Below are positions 3,960 to 58,123 of a stretch of DNA of 64,000 nucleotides, in pieces. A program made the position numbers and the translations under genes. Position 1 is the stretch's first letter, and every line of letters begins with the position of its first letter. Source of the DNA: Eledone cirrhosa (Eukaryota; Mollusca; Cephalopoda; Octopoda; Eledonidae); assembly GCA_964016885.1 (NCBI GenBank), contig OZ024741.1:33915527-33979526 (forward strand), read 5' to 3'. Under the pieces are notes generated by a model. It was not told where the DNA came from. It saw nothing but the letters and a program-made list of their open reading frames with translations, and made no database searches.

Positions 3960-6900
3960 CTTGATCTGTGGGATACCACCATACCATCTACACCACAGCT
4001 GTGGGATACCACCATACCATCTACACCACAGCTGTGGGATACCACCATACCATCTACACCACAGCTGTGGGATACCACCATACCATCTACACCACAGCTG
4101 TGGGATACCACCATACCATCTACACCACAGCTGTGGGATACCACCATACTATCTACACTACAGATGAGGGATACCACCATACCATCTACACTACAGATGA
4201 GGGATACCACCATACCATCTACACTACAGATGAGGGATACCACCATACCATCTACACTACAGCTGTGGGATACCACCATACCATCTACACTACAGATGAG
4301 GGATACCACCATACCATCTACACTACAGATGAGGGATACCACCATACTATCTACACTACAGCTGTGGGATACCACCATACCATCTACACTACAGATGAGG
4401 GATACCACCATACCATCTACACTACAGATGAGGGATACCACCATACTATCTACACTACAGCTGTGGGATACCACCATACCATCTACACTACAGATGAGGG
4501 ATACCACCATACTATCTACACTACAGATGAGGGATACCACCATACCATCTACACTACAGATGAGGGATACCACCATACCATCTACACTACAGATGAGGGA
4601 TACCACCATACCATCTACACTACAGATGAGGGATACCACCATACTATCTACACTACAGCTGTGGGATACCACCATACCATCTACACCACAGCTGTGGGAT
4701 ACCACCATACCATCTACACCACAGCTGTGGGATACCACCATACCATCTACACTACAGATGAGGGATACCACCATACTATCTACACTACAGATGAGGGATA
4801 CCACCATACTATCTACACTACAGCTGTGGGATACCACCATACTATCTACACTACAGATGAGGGATACCACCATACCATCTACACTACAGCTGTGGGATAC
4901 CACCATACCATCTACACTACAGCTGTGGGATACCACCATACTATCTACACTACAGATGAGGGATACCACCATACTATCTACACTACAGATGAGGGATACC
5001 ACCATACTATCTACACTACAGATGAGGGATACCACCATACTATCTACACCACAGCTGTGGGATACCACCATACTATCTACACCACAGCTGTGGGATACCA
5101 CCATACCATCTACACTACAGATGAGGGATACCACCATACTATCTACACTACAGATGAGGGATACCACCATACTATCTACACCACAGCTGTGGGATACCAC
5201 CATACTATCTACACCACAGCTGTGGGATACCACCATACCATCTACACTACAGATGAGGGATACCACCATACCATCTACACTACAGATGAGGGATACCACC
5301 ATACTATCTACACTACAGATGAGGGATACCACCATACCATCTACACCACAGCTGTGGGATACCACCATACCATCTACACTACAGCTGTGGGATACCACCA
5401 TACCATCTACACCACAGCTGTGGGATACCACCATACTATCTACACTACAGCTGTGGGATACCACCATACCATCTACACCACAGCTGTGGGATACCACCAT
5501 ACCATCTACACTACAGATGAGGGATACCACCATACTATCTACACCACAGCTGTGGGATACCACCAAACCATCTACACTACACCACAGCTGTGGGATAGCA
5601 CCATACCATCTACACCACAGCTGTGGGATACCACCAAACCATCTACACCACAGCTGTGGGATACCACCAAACCATCTACACTACAGCTGTGGGATACCAC
5701 CATACCATCTACACCACAGCTGTGGGATACCACCATACCATCTACACCACAGCTGTGGGATACCACCATACCATCTACACCACAGCTGTGGGATACCACC
5801 ATACCATCTACACCACAGCTGTGGGATACCACCAAACCATCTACACCACAGCTGTGGGATACCACCATACTATCTACACTACAGATGAGGGATACCACCA
5901 TACCATCTACACTACAGATGAGGGATACCACCATACCATCTACACCACAGCTGTGGGATACCACCATACCATCTACACTACACCACAGCTGTGGGATACC
6001 ACCAAACCATCTACACTACACCACAGCTGAGGGATACCACCATACCATCTACACCACAGCTGTGGAATACCACCATACCATCTACACTACACCACAGCTG
6101 TGGAATACCACCATACCATCTACACCACAGCTGTGGGATACCACCATACCATCTACACTACACCACAGCTGTGGGATACCACCATACCATCTACACTACA
6201 CCACAGCTGTGGGATACCACCAAACCATCTACCCTACACCACAGCTGAGGGATACCACCATACCATCTACCCTACACCACAGCTGTGGGATACCACCATA
6301 CCATCTACACCACAGCTGTGGGATACCACCATACTATCTACACCACAGCTGTGGGATACCACCATACCATCTACACCACAGCTGTGGGATACCACCATAC
6401 CATCTACACTACAGATGAGGGATACCACCATACCATCTACACTACAGATGAGGGATACCACCATACTATCTACACTACAGATGAGGGATACCACCATACT
6501 ATCTACACCACAGCTGTGGAATACCACCATACCATCTACACTACAGATGAGGGATACCACCATACCATCTACACTACACCACAGCTGTGGGATACCACCA
6601 TACCATCTACACCACAGCTGTGGAATACCACCATACCATCTACACTACACCACAGCTGTGGGATACCACCATACCATCTACACCACAGCTGTGGGATACC
6701 ACCATACCATCTACACTACACCACAGCTGTGGGATACCACCATACCATCTACACTACACCACAGCTGTGGGATACCACCAAACCATCTACCCTACACCAC
6801 AGCTGAGGGATACCACCATACCATCTACCCTACACCACAGCTGTGGGATACCACCATACCATCTACACCACAGCTGTGGGATACCACCATACCATCTACA

Positions 6901-7545
6901 CCACAGCTGTGGGATACCACCATACCATCTACACCACAGCTGTGGAATACCACCAAACCATCTACACCACAGCTGTGGGATACCACCATACCATCTACAC
7001 CACAGCTGTGGGATACCACCATACCATCTACACCACAGCTGTGGGATACCACCATAGCATCTACACTACACCACAGCTGTGGGATACCACCATACCATCT
7101 ACCCTACACCACAGCTGTGGGATACCACCATACCATCTACACCACAGCTGAGGGATACCACCATACCATCTACACTACAGATGAGGGATACCACCATACC
7201 ATCTACACCACAGCTGTGGGATACCACCATACCATCTACACCACAGCTGTGGAATACCACCAAACCATCTACACCACAGCTGTGGGATACCACCATACCA
7301 TCTACACCACAGCTGTGGGATACCACCATAGCATCTACACTACACCACAGCTGTGGGATACCACCATACCATCTACCCTACACCACAGCTGTGGGATACC
7401 ACCATACCATCTACACCACAGCTGAGGGATACCACCATACCATCTACACTACACCACAGCTGAGGGATACCACCATACCATCTACACTACACCACAGCTG
7501 TGGGATACCACCATACCATCTACCCTACAACTGAGGGATACCACT
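3960..7545. repeat. 33-bp minisatellite array, ~3.6 kb
   Basis: About 105 tandem units of 33 bp (11 codons). Two main variants alternate: one with 'cagctgtgggatacc' after 'acacca', the other with 'cagatgagggatacc' after 'acacta'. From about 5575 on, units with an extra 'actac' (38 bp) and a 'tggaatacc' variant appear, and blocks of several units recur (for example about 6100-6300 and 6640-6850), indicating block duplication. Because 33 is a multiple of three, frames on both strands stay open for up to about 800 codons, encoding only repeats of an 11-residue unit. I see no start context, splice evidence or non-repeat domain, so I do not call a gene. Confidence 0.95.
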
Positions 7546-8222: not shown

Positions 8223-8595
8223 AATAATAAAGAATTTCTGTCTCTGTCCATGAAAATCCCTCACAAGACATTTGTCAATAAAGAACTATAGTAGAAGACA
8301 CTTCCTCAAAGTTTCATGCTGTATTATGATTCTAAAGTGAACTTCTTAACCACACAGCCATACTTGTATATATATATATATATATATATAGATAATTTAA
8401 TATATCAACTAACATAAGCGCACAGATGCACGCCCATGCCAGCAAATACACAGGTTATGTCATAGTACCTAGGTGGTTCAATGCAGGAGAATGCAGAACA
8501 ATAATATAAAGGACGTAAAATAAAAAAATATTTTTTAAAAAAAAAAAAAAAATTTAAAAAAAATTTAAAAAAAATGTTTTTCTTACTTAAATTTT

Positions 8596-8679
8596 CACTC
8601 CAACTAATTAGTTTCTGCAATGGGATAAAGACAGTTACGTAATTCAACTGTCGAGAATTCATTGCGTCATCAGGAAGTC
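8596..8679 (-). ncRNA. Hammerhead ribozyme-like motif, unit A
   Basis: Minus-strand copy of the motif described in detail at 10209-10290, with the same box, stems and GUU triplet. The predicted cleavage point lies between 8602 and 8601. Distance to the same point in unit B is 571 bp. Confidence 0.6.
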
Positions 8680-9166
8680 TATTCTCAGTTAAGTCTCCAG
8701 GCAATGCGCGGACACTGGCGGCTCATATAAAAATAATAATAATTCGGTAGATCGAACAGCTTGCGAGGACTGAATTCTATGTACCGAAATTCTCACTGCT
8801 TCAAGTCAAATGGCCGATTCTAAAGAATCAATCACGTGACACAGAGGCTAGTTAGAAGGAATGGGATGGTAAGATGACTGACGCCTACTAACACCCCAAA
8901 AAAAAATTTTTTTAGAAGTGGTTTTGGCAAGTTTGCTCGACAAATCAGTGATTTGGAGATAAATATAGATAATTTAATATATCAACTAACATAAGCGCAC
9001 AGATGCACGCCCATGCCAGCAAATACACAGGTTATGTCATAGTACCTAGGTGGTTCAATGCAGGAGAATGCAGAACAATAATATAAAGGACGTAAAATAA
9101 AAAAATATTTTTTTAAAAAAAAATTTAAAAAAAATTTAAAAAAAATTTTTTTCTTACTTAAATTTT

Positions 9167-9250
9167 CACTCCAACTAATTAGTTTCTGCAATGGGATAAA
9201 GACAGTTACGTAATTCAACTGTCGAGAATTCATTGCGTCATCAGGAAGTC
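9167..9250 (-). ncRNA. Hammerhead ribozyme-like motif, unit B
   Basis: Minus-strand copy identical in its core to those in unit A and in the inverted copy. The predicted cleavage point lies between 9173 and 9172. A self-cleaving RNA spanning units A and B would release a ~571-nt monomer. Confidence 0.6.
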
Positions 9251-10208
9251 TATTCTCAGTTAAGTCTCCAGGCAATGCGCGGACACTGGCGGCTCATATA
9301 AAAATAATAATAATTCGGTAGATCGAACAGCTTGCGAGGACTGAATTCTATGTACCGAAATTCTCACTGCTTCAAGTCAAATGGCCGATTCTAAAGAATC
9401 AATCACGTGACACAGAGGCTAGTTAGAAGGAATGGGATGGTAAGATGACTGACGCCTACTAACACCCCAAAAAAAAAAAAATTTTTTTAGAAGTGGTTTT
9501 GGCAAGTTTGCTCGACAAATCAGTGATTTGGAGATAAATATAGATAATTTAATATATCAACTAACATAAGCGCACAGATGCACGCCCATGCCAGCAAATA
9601 CACAGGTTATGTCATAGTACCTAGGTGGTTCAATGCAGGAGAATGCAGAACAATAATATAAAGGACGTAAAATAAAAAAATATTTTTTTAAAAAAAAAAA
9701 TTTAAAAAAAAAATTTAAAAAAAATTTAAAAATTTAAAAATTTAAAAATTTAAAAATTTAAAAATTTAAAAAAAAAATATTTTTTTATTTTACGTCCTTT
9801 ATATTATTGTTCTGCATTCTCCTGCATTGAACCACCTAGGTACTATGACATAACCTGTGTATTTGCTGGCATGGGCGTGCATCTGTGCGCTTATGTTAGT
9901 TGATATATTAAATTATCTATATTTATCTCCAAATCACTGATTTGTCGAGCAAACTTGCCAAAACCACTTCTAAAAAAATTTTTTTTTTTGGGGTGTTAGT
10001 AGGCGTCAGTCATCTTACCATCCCATTCCTTCTAACTAGCCTCTGTGTCACGTGATTGATTCTTTAGAATCGGCCATTTGACTTGAAGCAGTGAGAATTT
10101 CGGTACATAGAATTCAGTCCTCGCAAGCTGTTCGATCTACCGAATTATTATTATTTTTATATGAGCCGCCAGTGTCCGCGCATTGCCTGGAGACTTAACT
10201 GAGAATAG

Positions 10209-10290
10209 ACTTCCTGATGACGCAATGAATTCTCGACAGTTGAATTACGTAACTGTCTTTATCCCATTGCAGAAACTAATTAGTTGGAGT
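10209..10290 (+). ncRNA. Hammerhead ribozyme-like motif, inverted copy
   Basis: Read 5'-3': stem I strand ACTTC (10209-10213), box CTGATGA (10214-10220), stem II GCAATG (10222-10227) with CATTGC (10265-10270), an inner hairpin ACAGTT/AACTGT (10236-10241 with 10251-10256), GAAA (10272-10275), stem III ACTA/TAGT with a 2-nt loop (10275-10284), triplet GTT (10283-10285), then GGAGT (10286-10290) closing stem I with one G.U pair. Weak point: the pair next to the core (10221 with 10271) is C-A rather than the usual G-C. The box and GAAA match the hammerhead consensus exactly. Type I topology. Confidence 0.62.
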
Positions 10291-10370
10291 GAAAATTTAA
10301 GTAAGAAAAAAATTTTTTTTAAATTTTTTTTAAATTTTTTTTTTAAAAAAATATTTTTTTATTTTACGTC

Positions 10371-10375
<5 letters not shown>

Positions 10376-10420
<45 letters not shown>
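10376..10420. repeat. (TA)n tract
   Basis: About 20 TA dinucleotides between the hammerhead array and the next repeat. Confidence 0.95.
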
Positions 10421-10421
<1 letters not shown>

Positions 10422-10560
10422 GGAAAAATTTGAACAGGAACAAAACAGAGAGGCAGTACAACGAATGTTTATTAATTTCACGCTCTGGAGAATGGGATGT
10501 TGGTGGGGAACGACGTTTCGGGCATAAGCCCTTCCTCGGGTGAGAAGTGTGTAGGAACAG
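10420..10560 (-). mobile_element. TA-flanked repeat with a hammerhead-like hairpin
   Basis: Begins 'atggaaaaatttgaacagg', a sequence found again after a (TA)n tract at 53304-53395. The minus strand contains a GGGC-TTAT-GCCC hairpin immediately followed by GAAAC and GTC (about 10511-10535), preceded by CCGAGGA where a hammerhead would have CUGANGA. There is one extra A before the hairpin and no visible stem I, so I treat this only as hammerhead-like. Confidence 0.45.
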
Positions 10561-26654: not shown

Positions 26655-28960
26655 ATATCATCATCATCATCATCATCACCGTTTAACGTCCATCTTCCAC
26701 GCTTGCATGGGTTTGGACAGGAGTTTTCCCACTTGAGGCAAGAGTGGTTGTCTTGCTTGCATAGGACTGTCTGGCGGGTTTTCTACGGCTGGATGCCCTT
26801 CCTAACACCAACCACGTTTACAGTGTGGACTGGGAGGTTTTTTTGTCGTGACACCTACACGACCTCATTTGTTTCGGACTGGATGTTGTGGTACCAACAT
26901 AACTTTACATTGAAAGGGGTGGCGTGGATGGGGTGAGTGGGGGTAGTGGGACGGGGGTGTATTTTTGTTAGAGGTGCCTACTGACTGTAGTAGGTTTCAC
27001 TTTGTACTTAGGTAAGGCAGGTCTTCTGTATTACTGTGTAGTGCCAAAGATCTCGGTCCAGTGATATTGTCTTGGAGAGGTGTAAGTGTGTGAGGTCGGA
27101 ATTTATCAAGTCGTCCCAGGTTTTTCTGAGTCTGCCTACTCTGTGGCTACCGTCTATTTTTATTGCCTTACACTTTTTTATACAGCTGTCGTCTTTCATG
27201 CGCATCACGTGACCATACCAACGTAGCCTTCTCTCAAGTAAACAACATCTGATCCCTCTTATTTCTAATTTTTCCCTTAGTTCGTTTATGCTTTGCCGTT
27301 CACGTATATTACTATTACACATCCAGCGGAGCATGCAAGCTTCATTCCTCTCCAGTCTACGTATATCCTCTGCACACAATGCCCAAGTCTCACTGCCATG
27401 TAACATTGCTGATCGTATGCAGGCATCATACAGCCTGCCTTTCATTTTTAGAGAGAACCCTTTAGCGGCTAATAGTGGTATAAGCTCTCTGAACTTTTTC
27501 CATCCAGTTCTGACTCTAGCTACTGTACTTTCAGAGCACCCTCCCCCACTGCTGATTTTGTCACCCAAGTAACAGAAGGTGTCCACTATTTCTATAGAAC
27601 CATCTGTGCAATGGAATGAGCTAGTATTCTGTGGGCACTTGCTGCTACTTATTGCACCAGAGCACCGGCCACATATAAAATCTATATTCTTAGTTAGCTT
27701 ACCTGTGATCCCACTACATCTTTTATGTACCCATACTTTGCATTTGGGACATAAAATGGAGTTTCTGCCTACTCCTTTCCTACACACTGAGCATGGCCAT
27801 TTCCCAGATGGAACCGGTGCCCTATTTTCCTTCCTACAAACTAGAACTTTAGTCTTAGACAAGTTAACTTTAAGGCCTTTTGATTCTAGGCCATGCTTCC
27901 ATGTTTGAAATTTCTTCTCTAGTTCAGCCATTGATTCAGCTCATCTGCGTATAGGAGTTCCCATGGGCAGCTGGTCTTGAACTCCTCTGTTATAGCCTGA
28001 AGGGCAATAATAAATAGTAGGGGGCTAAGAACGGAGCCCTGATGAACACTAACTTTTACGCTAAACTCTTCACTATATTCGTTGTTAATTCTAACCTTGC
28101 TGACTGTTTCTTTATACATGGCTTGTGCCATTCATCAACACTTAGTTTTCTAAGAGCCCACCAGATAATGGAGCGGGGGACTCTGTCAAAGGCTTTCTCC
28201 AAGTCAACAAAAGCTAAGTATAGGGGTTTACTTTTAGCTAGATACTTCTCCTGTAGTTGTCGTACAATGAAAAGAGTGTCTGTGGTACTTTTACCTGACA
28301 CAAACCCAAACTGCATTTCATCTAGATCAATTCACTCTCTGATTAGTTGCGCTATAACTCTTTCTGTGACCTTCATAACCTGGTCAATTAATTTAATGCC
28401 TCTATAGTTTCCCCTATCTAGGGCATCTCCTTTACCCTTGTAGCAGTTAATGATGATGCTGCTACACCAGTCATTTGGTATGACCCTATTCTGTATGAGT
28501 TGGTTTACTATCCGGGTGACCATAGTGTGTCCCACCGTCCCAGAAGCTTTCAGCATTTCAGCAACTATTTCCGAAGACCCAGCCGCCTTACCCGTCTTCA
28601 TATCTTTGATTGCCTTACTTATTATACTACCTTCAACTAACACTGCTGGTCCCTCTATTGGATCGATGTGGGGGAGACTGTCTTTCTCCCATTTATTCTC
28701 CTCATTTAGTACCCTTTCGTAGTGACACTTCCAAGCTACCTTCTTATCAGCGTCAGTGATGGCAAGTACACCATCATCATTAAGGACATACTTCTCCCCG
28801 ACAATATCACGGTTTTCCTTGACACATTGCCTAGCAATCCTGAACACCTCACGTTTTTGGTCCTCGCGTTGTAGAATATGCTTGAACTTTCTTTCCTCTG
28901 TTTCCCTTCTTGCTAAGTACACTTGTCTCCTAGCTTTCCTCCTGGCCACTTGAATATATA
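26655..28960 (-). pseudogene. LINE family A, 5'-truncated copy with RT and PHD-like finger
   Basis: Read on the minus strand. From 28949: N-terminal part of a reverse transcriptase, with an 'AAGSSEIVAEMLKASG' region and 'NCYKGKGDALDRGNYRGIKL'. A TGA stop falls near 28332, then 'MQFGFVSGKSTTDTL', 'AFVDLEKAFDRVP', a frameshift near 28125, 'QGSVLSPLLFI', and the active-site region changed to YADE by a small deletion near 27945. The 27931-27008 frame then holds a C4HC3 PHD-like finger (CSVC, CPKC, WVHKRC, CGRC) and the C-terminal 'RLRWYGHVMRM' and 'GRLRKTWDDL' motifs. A 3' untranslated tail ends in a CAT repeat at 26655. The element encoded an RNA-dependent DNA polymerase for its own copying. This copy is dead. 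The clade is not assigned. Confidence 0.85.
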
Positions 28961-53303: not shown

Positions 53304-53412
53304 TATAATGGAAAAATTTGAACAGGGACAAAACAGAGAGGCAGTACAACGATAACAGTAACAAAATCAAACAGAGGTAATGCGTGGAAGGAAAATATAT
53401 ATATATATAATA
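53304..53412 (+). mobile_element. TA-flanked repeat, relative of 10420-10560
   Basis: Starts 'atggaaaaatttgaacagg' and shares about 45 bp with 10420-10470, then diverges. TA tracts on both sides. It lacks the hairpin seen in the other copy. Confidence 0.6.
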
Positions 53413-57061: not shown

Positions 57062-58123
57062 TTTCAATTCTGTGCCACACAAAAAGCTTATGGCAAAACT
57101 CTCTGCAATGGGTGTGAAGGATGATCTTTTTAACTGGTTGAAGTCCTTCATTCTCAATCGAAGAGAGGTAGTCACGGTTCTGGGACAGCATTCCTCACCA
57201 ATGAGATGTCATCTGGTGTACAACAGGGATCTGTTCTTGGCCCCCTTTTGTTTGTGGCATATATTAATGACATAGATGCCAACTTAAAGAATGCCACAGT
57301 AGTAAAGTATGCAGACGACATCAAGCTGTACCTTGAAATAAAAAGGACAGATCCTGAACACTATAGATCTTGCTTGCAGTCTGACCTGGACACAATGCAA
57401 CAATGGATCTCAGACTGGCAACTCAAGCTAGCTGTGGACAAGTGTACCACCATGCATTTTGGGAGTAAAAACACTTCGTCCACATACTCCCTCCACAGCA
57501 CTAATATCAAGAAGTCTTCTTGTGAACGTGACCTGGGCATTACGGTCAGCAGCGATTTGCGTTGGACGAAGCACGTCTCTAAAATTGTCAAGAGGGCTGA
57601 GCGTCTCTTAGTATCACTCAGCAAGACCTTTGTTAGCCGCTCTCCAGCTATCTATTTAAGGCTGTACATGGCTATGGTGCGGCCACACTTAGATTTTGCA
57701 TCACCAGTCTGGAACCCCTATCTTGCTCAGAACATTGACCGCCTGGAAACTGTTCAGAGACGTGCAACCAAGCGAATACTCTCCATCAGGCATCTACCAT
57801 ACTCTGAATGCCTTGCTTCCCTGGGCATGGATACATTGAAGCTCCGACGTCTGGCAACTGACTTGGTAAATACCCACAAAATTGTTAACCATCTTGCCAA
57901 CAACAACCCTGAGTACCTTTTTGATTTCCATGTGTCTAACACACGTGGGCATGCACACAAAGTCAGAAAACCACACAGCTCCCATGACTTTCGGAAACCT
58001 TTTTTCATGCGCAGAGTTGCTGAAGCATGGAACAAACTACCTGCATCAGTTGTTAGCTGTCGAGACGCTGCATCCTTTAAAACCTCCATGCTTCCTGAGA
58101 TTCGCCCACACTACACCTAATAT
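57062..58123 (+). pseudogene. CR1/Jockey-like LINE reverse transcriptase, 3' half
   Basis: The first frame (about 57062-57200) has 'SVPHKKLMAKLSAMG' and 'LFNWLKSFILNRREVV'. A one-base shift near 57200 leads into the main frame (57206-58120): 'MSSGVQQGSVLGPLLFVAYI', 'KYADDIKLY' (the RT active site YADD), 'WQLKLAVDKC', 'DLGITVSSDLRW', 'RPHLDFASPVWNPY', 'RRATKRI', and C-terminal 'VAEAWNKLPASVVS'. This is the standard order of CR1/Jockey-type elements. The 5' half with endonuclease is missing; upstream is a CA microsatellite. Apart from the shift the last ~300 codons are open, so it is fairly young. Confidence 0.88.

Follow-up and report, generated by a model that had tools for sequence, protein, structure and literature searches.

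For Penelope-like elements, pLTRs are described as head-to-head inverted copies with an optional tail on one of them (PMC3846280). In the anole Penelope-like element, two adjacent internal start sites of reverse transcription are reported 111-118 nt into the ORF and the hammerhead cut at 26 (PMC11167929), which by our own arithmetic from these figures places the start sites 85-92 nt past the cut. The same report describes a genomic tail of 30-40 bp lying between the start sites, cleavage of both strands at AT-rich targets and start sites that are not homologous to the cut DNA. According to its results, unprocessed RNA is the main insertion substrate, hammerhead mutants are inserted without reduction, cleavage being unneeded for insertion in vitro, and the ribozyme does not cleave without protein (PMC11167929). 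As the enzyme source for the spread of animal retrozymes, the account in PMC7229834 names Penelope-like elements as a strong candidate, on the basis of shared features and co-occurrence, and shared junctions within one genome make this candidate testable. With regard to the hammerhead core, loop I-loop II pseudoknots have been predicted in about 40% of hammerheads, and Perreault 2011 at first rejected hits with a mispair at position 10.1-11.1, U-U being given as the best-tolerated mispair there (PMC3088659); U.U exceptions at this position are on record (PMC3088659, PMC7229834).

The window, i.e. the whole stretch of 64,000 nucleotides of the Eledone cirrhosa genome that was analysed, contains an array at 8391-10378 in which two tandem units and part of a third are followed by an A/T-rich junction and an inverted arm. 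The initial annotation had described tandem units of ~570 bp ending in an inverted copy, and this description holds. Its features are given below; the 3' ends are named u92 and u214 after their position in unit B numbering from the predicted hammerhead cut, in ribozyme-sense orientation, with boundaries taken from BLAST.

8367 to 8390, no strand: left flanking (TA)n target tract
8391 to 8967, minus strand: unit A, 577 bp, with a u214-type 3' end (ribozyme sense) as its left edge
8968 to 9542, minus strand: unit B, 575 bp, head-to-tail with unit A
9543 to ~9727, minus strand: partial third unit, extending to the inversion junction
9728 to 9770, no strand: head-to-head inversion junction, occupied by an expanded A/T tract (AAAAATTT)n
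9771 to 10378, plus strand: inverted arm, 608 bp, with a u92-type 3' end as its right edge
10374 to 10419, no strand: right flanking (TA)n target tract

On copy-to-copy comparison, the two units, the partial third unit and the inverted arm were found to be identical outside A/T tracts, and the single substitution of unit A is located within such a tract. The GC content of the unit is 0.35. The array sits inside a (TA)n tract, into which both of its outer edges pass. No ORF of at least 120 aa occurs within 8391-10378, so that ORFs for reverse transcriptase and GIY-YIG endonuclease are absent from the array, in line with the earlier remark that the element has no reverse transcriptase.

Elsewhere in the window, a 304-aa ORF with a reverse transcriptase domain (57206-58120, plus strand; RVT_1, E 3.6e-15), LINE-like by eye, lies ~47 kb from the array, and a PHD finger ORF is found at 27008-27931 on the minus strand (E 5.9e-07). 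Near-identical stretches around CTGATGA at 28039 (plus strand) and 54666 (minus strand), in opposite orientation, are probably two copies of a dispersed repeat. A 33-bp minisatellite with ~105 copies and 92% matches occupies 3966-7544, and long open frames overlap it. A 45-bp sequence follows a TA tract at both 10420-10464 and 53308-53352 (97.8% identical), and another repeat family may therefore also start at (TA)n. No tRNA was detected in the window by ARAGORN, and BLAST returned no matches to plasmid sequences.

Using 376 bases of unit A as query against the 2.98-Gb host assembly, 42 matches were obtained from the best 40 of 2,117 candidates scored. They correspond to 21 arrays including that of the window, the 20 others being fetched, and the copies sampled are thus the best-scoring, youngest ones. 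The full units (n=57) measure 548-581 bp and differ mostly in A/T tracts, and the 84 full hammerhead domains, a count that leaves out partial matches and junction copies, collapse into 6 distinct 110-nt sequences. Copies of the unit make up a young family, dispersed through the Eledone cirrhosa genome and with no ORF of 120 aa, and the mobility first proposed for it is thereby supported.

The insertion ends follow a simple pattern. Among the 32 readable outer 3' ends, 16 are u92 and 16 are u214 by our own count from the boundary table, and no other 3' end site was seen among them; all 32 lie at TA tracts, the tract being short at locus L161 and interrupted at L179. As the A/T tracts vary in length, the real distances are shorter than u92 and u214 in most copies, and where printed alone they are ~79-95 and ~201-220 nt. 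When end types were counted for each array by regular expression, with a u92 pattern loose enough to include L179, both ends were readable in 12 of the 21 arrays, only u92 in 4, only u214 in 4 and none in 1, N runs hiding some of them. Every one of the 12 two-ended arrays is head-to-head, with a u92 end on one side and a u214 end, oppositely oriented, on the other, an outcome whose probability is 0.00024 if ends are drawn evenly and independently (own arithmetic). The head-to-head form is the usual one in the family (12/21 arrays by readable ends), and the inverted copy in the window fits this.

The 12 inversion junctions differ as printed, and the arrays are therefore taken as separate events. 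Where an inverted arm is lacking, the 5' side falls at a variable position. By our own reading of the boundary table, each array includes a segment that crosses the predicted cut site; since inserts run across this site, the template would be multimeric or circular. At one head-to-head junction (L167:5368-5432), several short tandem copies of a unit segment are seen, as from slippage of a copying enzyme.

The same genome yielded 14 matches to the Rfam hammerhead model RF00163, of which 8 loci were fetched. In these canonical-hammerhead loci stem III is very short, a feature on record for Penelope-like elements. The 9 copies in the 8 loci reach (TA)n either 50-51 nt (5 copies) or 153 nt (3 copies) past the cut, while the ninth, whose (TA)n tract is interrupted, was read as 59 nt past the cut. 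One end of each kind, in opposite orientation, was found in 4/4 clear two-ended loci (L122, L124, L125 and L128); the end types of L126 are ambiguous, and L129, L180 and L181 have one end each. By eye alone, the u92 end resembles the c50 end of these loci (TTTTAC...CTT.ATAT), a resemblance that we do not claim, and no shared 3' sequence between the unit and the canonical-hammerhead loci could be established. An ORF upstream of one canonical copy is a candidate Penelope C-terminal endonuclease region. Searches of Pfam, protein and PDB databases with it found nothing; these loci are therefore presumed, by inference, to be Penelope-like, and they may supply the helper. Judged by analogy, they agree with published Penelope insertion in having two internal ends, a tail, an AT-rich target and head-to-head arrangement.

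Considering these junctions together, we regard it as probable that the array arose by a single insertion, the inserted element being retrozyme-like, built of tandem units, non-autonomous and dependent on Penelope-type machinery for its movement. The insertion scars match those of the presumed Penelope-like loci in the same genome, which suggests whose machinery moves the element. The likeness to Penelope-like elements pointed out in the initial annotation thus finds backing in the shared (TA)n target, the two end sites and the same end pairing as at the canonical-hammerhead loci. In the mechanism that we propose, a multi-unit (or circular) RNA in ribozyme sense would be bound by a Penelope-like reverse transcriptase/endonuclease and the (TA)n tract would be cut on both strands. 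Reverse transcription would begin inside the RNA at u92 or u214, past the predicted hammerhead cut, with each DNA strand priming at a different one of the two RNA sites, and the two cDNAs would run through up to several units before meeting head to head. If the two strands prime at two different RNA sites, one each, every complete insertion has one short and one tailed end. This one-of-each rule predicts how the protein uses the two target strands. Which strand primes where, the RNA circles and self-cleavage are parts of the scheme that we infer, and circles of the unit RNA are possible.

The hammerhead-like domain is present in both units and in the inverted arm, where it was detected with a covariance model built from this element family. 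Its parts, for which the inverted arm serves as reference, are as follows.

8585 to 8694, minus strand: hammerhead-like domain of unit A (covariance model match)
9156 to 9265, minus strand: hammerhead-like domain of unit B (covariance model match)
10193 to 10302, plus strand: hammerhead-like domain of the inverted arm (covariance model match)
10201 to 10206, plus strand: GAGAAU, part of the internal loop of stem I; its complement AUUCUC lies in the internal loop of stem II (10229-10234)
10214 to 10220, plus strand: core CUGAUGA (the same block lies at 8673 in unit A and 9244 in unit B, both on the minus strand)
C10221 opposite A10271, plus strand: position 10.1-11.1, a mismatch
10222 to 10270, plus strand: stem II GCAAUG/CAUUGC, with a 7x7 internal loop and an inner hairpin GACAGUU/AACUGUC
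10272 to 10285, plus strand: GAAA, palindromic stem III ACUAAUUAGU, and H17 = U

In ribozyme sense the domain is ordered stem I, CUGAUGA, stem II, GAAA, stem III, GUU and stem I. The cut sites predicted from GUU would lie between 8602 and 8601 (unit A, minus strand), between 9173 and 9172 (unit B, minus strand) and between 10285 and 10286 (inverted arm). As sequence, all the constituents of the type I core are present, namely CUGANGA, GAA, A15.1-U16.1 and H17, with three helices in type I order. The first description of a full type I hammerhead therefore stands for the core, GAAA, GUU and the order of the stems, but the domain is non-canonical at 10.1-11.1. The C before GCAAUG and the A after CAUUGC form one base per side between core and stem II; as C faces A here, 0 of the three window copies pass a descriptor in which 10.1-11.1 pairing is required. 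Stem III, at first drawn as 4 bp with a 2-nt loop, is more suitably drawn with 3 bp and a loop AAUU, both within a 10-nt palindrome, and a distal stem I (ACUUAA/UUAAGU), which had not been recorded earlier, is present. The predicted loop I-loop II complementarity, also absent from the initial annotation, extends over 6 nt (7 in the relative at L181 described below), the same strands could form a competing hairpin, and pairing as good was reached in 2,084 of 200,000 shuffles of both loops. A hairpin CCAG/CUGG at 10169-10190 lies just upstream of the domain; it reads CCUG/CAGG in L181 by eye, a change that is possibly compensatory.

Within the family, the core and the C.A mismatch at 10.1-11.1 are the same in 84/84 full copies. 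One domain variant (3 copies) has C-G in place of U.G in stem I, the stem III loop bears an insertion in a single copy, and one base pair of the loop-loop complementarity is broken in 1/84 full copies. With only 6 distinct sequences among the 84 full domains, a covariation test within the family is impossible. The family covariance model gave 94 matches, comprising the 84 full copies, 2 matches to the same relative in L127 and L181, and 8 weaker ones (13.5-125.6 bits) in or near arrays, mostly at inversion junctions. The divergent relative (L181:5242-5346, 74.7 bits) belongs to a locus that had been fetched for its canonical hammerhead.

This relative and five unit variants were aligned with MAFFT and a 27-pair structure was scored, of which 98.1% of the alignment cells are paired. 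Five pairs differ on both sides in the relative (distal stem I contributing one, stem II two and the inner hairpin two), and no other sequence contributes such a change. The relative also has three broken pairs, of which two lie in distal and one in proximal stem I. None of 500 shuffles reached five both-sided changes, and slid structures gave 0-1. The relative is identical to the unit domain at 79/105 positions, and the 26 differences all fall among the 84 positions outside the 21 letters of CUGAUGA and GAAACUAAUUAGUU, i.e. the core and stem III (P 0.0012, with sites taken as independent). At 10.1-11.1 it has A.A, still a mismatch. By the evidence of this one relative, comparison of sequences indicates that the hammerhead-like domain is a kept structure. 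The relative, one incomplete copy flanked by TA tracts (L181:5139-5475), has a well conserved u92 region; its 3' end, by eye, is neither u92 nor u214 and falls outside the two-site rule.

Folding predictions give a divided picture. When a piece of 120 nt is folded, the stems that dominate the ensemble are stem II (0.97-0.99) and proximal stem I (0.79-0.92), but not stem III (~0.17) or distal stem I (<0.09). In a 350-nt piece the probabilities drop to 0.08-0.15 for stem II and 0.01 for stem I, and the circular unit is predicted to form neither of these stems, the inner hairpin alone of these elements being present. A 111-nt piece is not unusually stable (z -1.05). The programs used ignore tertiary contacts. 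The folding energy of the circular unit (z -4.6, 60 shuffles) was set aside, being inflated by A/U runs. The predicted behaviour in long context is evidence against a freely cleaving ribozyme, and self-cleavage of the predicted domain appears doubtful because of the 10.1-11.1 mismatch, the lack of an Rfam hammerhead match and the other folds predicted to win in longer RNA. Mismatch and long-context folding argue for weak, protein-assisted or no cleavage. Of the self-cleaving hammerhead proposed at the outset, the hammerhead-type fold gains support from the compensatory changes of one relative, whereas long-context folding speaks against a free ribozyme.

As for the nature of the element, the balance tilts towards a Penelope-dependent satellite with an unpaired-10.1-11.1 hammerhead variant, whose inserts would record a Penelope rule that the strands prime at different RNA sites; it might then stand to Penelope as a SINE stands to a LINE. 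A hammerhead fold kept with 10.1-11.1 unpaired would test how much change the core tolerates, perhaps with protein help as in the anole element.

Close to an even chance must be given to the reading that the unit is indeed mobilised by Penelope-like elements, with the hammerhead fold being a non-cleaving relic or a protein-binding RNA structure. The mismatch shared by all 84 full copies and the L181 relative, the predicted success of other folds in longer RNA and the inserts that cross the predicted cut would all be expected here, as would the undiminished insertion of anole hammerhead mutants and the failure of that ribozyme to cleave without protein reported in PMC11167929. Against it, all 21 core and stem III letters are kept while 26 of the 84 other positions differ, and loop-loop complementarity is also kept.

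Amplification at the DNA level is improbable by comparison. Here a satellite would spread as extrachromosomal circles, join to (TA)n through TATA microhomology and acquire its inversions by fold-back repair. In its favour, the two 3' end sites resemble TATA and agree with (TA)n for a few bases, the copies are nearly identical, and TA tracts, which are common in the window, may be fragile. Such joining does not account for the fact that the sense-3' side alone is fixed and the other side variable, with 0/32 readable ends at another site, nor for the one-of-each rule, which holds in 12/12 arrays and also at the canonical-hammerhead loci. Insertion by Penelope-type machinery remains our preferred reading.

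That the resemblance to a hammerhead is a chance hairpin in a satellite repeat is very unlikely, although the Rfam searches and the number of motifs that one window may offer lend this view some weight, and the fold is not the preferred one in long RNA. At gathering thresholds, Rfam matched nothing in the whole window, and the check with its hammerhead models recommended in the initial annotation returned no hammerhead match to the domain at E up to 10. Control scans with Rfam covered 8 of the 120 loci that the canonical hammerhead pattern had picked out in viral contigs: 7/8 had a hammerhead match at E up to 1, and 0/7 of those scanned at gathering reached it. Since these loci were canonical by choice, the Rfam negative means "not canonical". 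MicroRNA-family matches on the inverted repeat or TA tracts, and snoR144 matches overlapping the region of stem II (19.8 bits at E 1.1 and, in a further scan, 18.2 bits at E 0.16), were all far below gathering and were taken as chance.

A descriptor with every stem of at least 4 bp and the 10.1-11.1 mismatch allowed, set after the motif was seen, gave 1 hit when run on one strand of 800 Mb of artificial sequence from a first-order Markov model of the window. Among 18,261 stem geometries in the window, three, which are the copies themselves, score 11/11 core features, none scores 10 and two score 9. The exact motif pattern had 0 matches in viral contigs, and a single match to the stem-II pattern there was rejected as coding-like by eye and without stem III. 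As hairpins are more frequent in real than in Markov DNA, the descriptor is post hoc and many motifs could have been noticed, the chance test alone is not decisive. The compensatory changes and core conservation in the L181 relative add to it, as does the location of the domain, which shortly precedes the insertion end here in the same way as it does at the canonical-hammerhead loci. Near-identical repeats are hard to assemble and several loci contain N runs, but an assembly artefact as the source of the inverted structure is hardly conceivable, for 12 different head-to-head junctions with a constant end rule occur in unrelated places.

Retrozymes, Penelope hammerheads, tails and head-to-head inversion are known already. 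As far as our literature search shows, what is new is the element family, a fold that has an inner hairpin and leaves 10.1-11.1 unpaired, and the junctions that tie a retrozyme-like element to Penelope-type insertion with a one-of-each rule; no published account of the family or of this rule was found in the open-access PMC literature.

In comparison with the repeat-type dimeric hammerheads of newt and Aedes, as these are presented in PMC3088659, the unit shares a palindromic stem III with its loop, and the predicted loop I-loop II pairing may be a further likeness. Its 10-nt palindrome would be able to form a 10-bp dimer stem, and repeat-type hammerheads are thought to act as dimers (PMC3088659). 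It differs from them in the unpaired 10.1-11.1 position and the inner hairpin in stem II. With the metazoan non-LTR retrozymes portrayed by Cervera and de la Pena 2020 (PMC7229834), the unit has in common short non-coding tandem units, a type I hammerhead (here in variant form), low GC and dispersal in an animal genome as dimers to multimers. At ~560-575 nt (range 548-581), against ~170-400 nt given there, it is long for an animal retrozyme, as had been suspected from the start, and it has a mismatched 10.1-11.1 position and an extended stem II. Its insertion junctions point to Penelope machinery, whereas the account in PMC7229834 goes no further than to name Penelope a strong candidate.

Penelope-like elements with pLTR hammerheads, in the descriptions cited above, share with the unit tandem and head-to-head inverted copies, an optional tail, an AT-rich target and two internal start sites past the hammerhead. 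In contrast to them, the unit has no reverse transcriptase or endonuclease ORF, a larger hammerhead, a palindromic stem III and a (TA)n target. The start sites of the anole element are reported as adjacent and non-homologous to the cut DNA, while those of E. cirrhosa lie ~100-122 nt apart (~122 in the unit) and are TATA-like, and each of the 12 two-ended arrays of the unit that were read combines a u92 with a u214 end.
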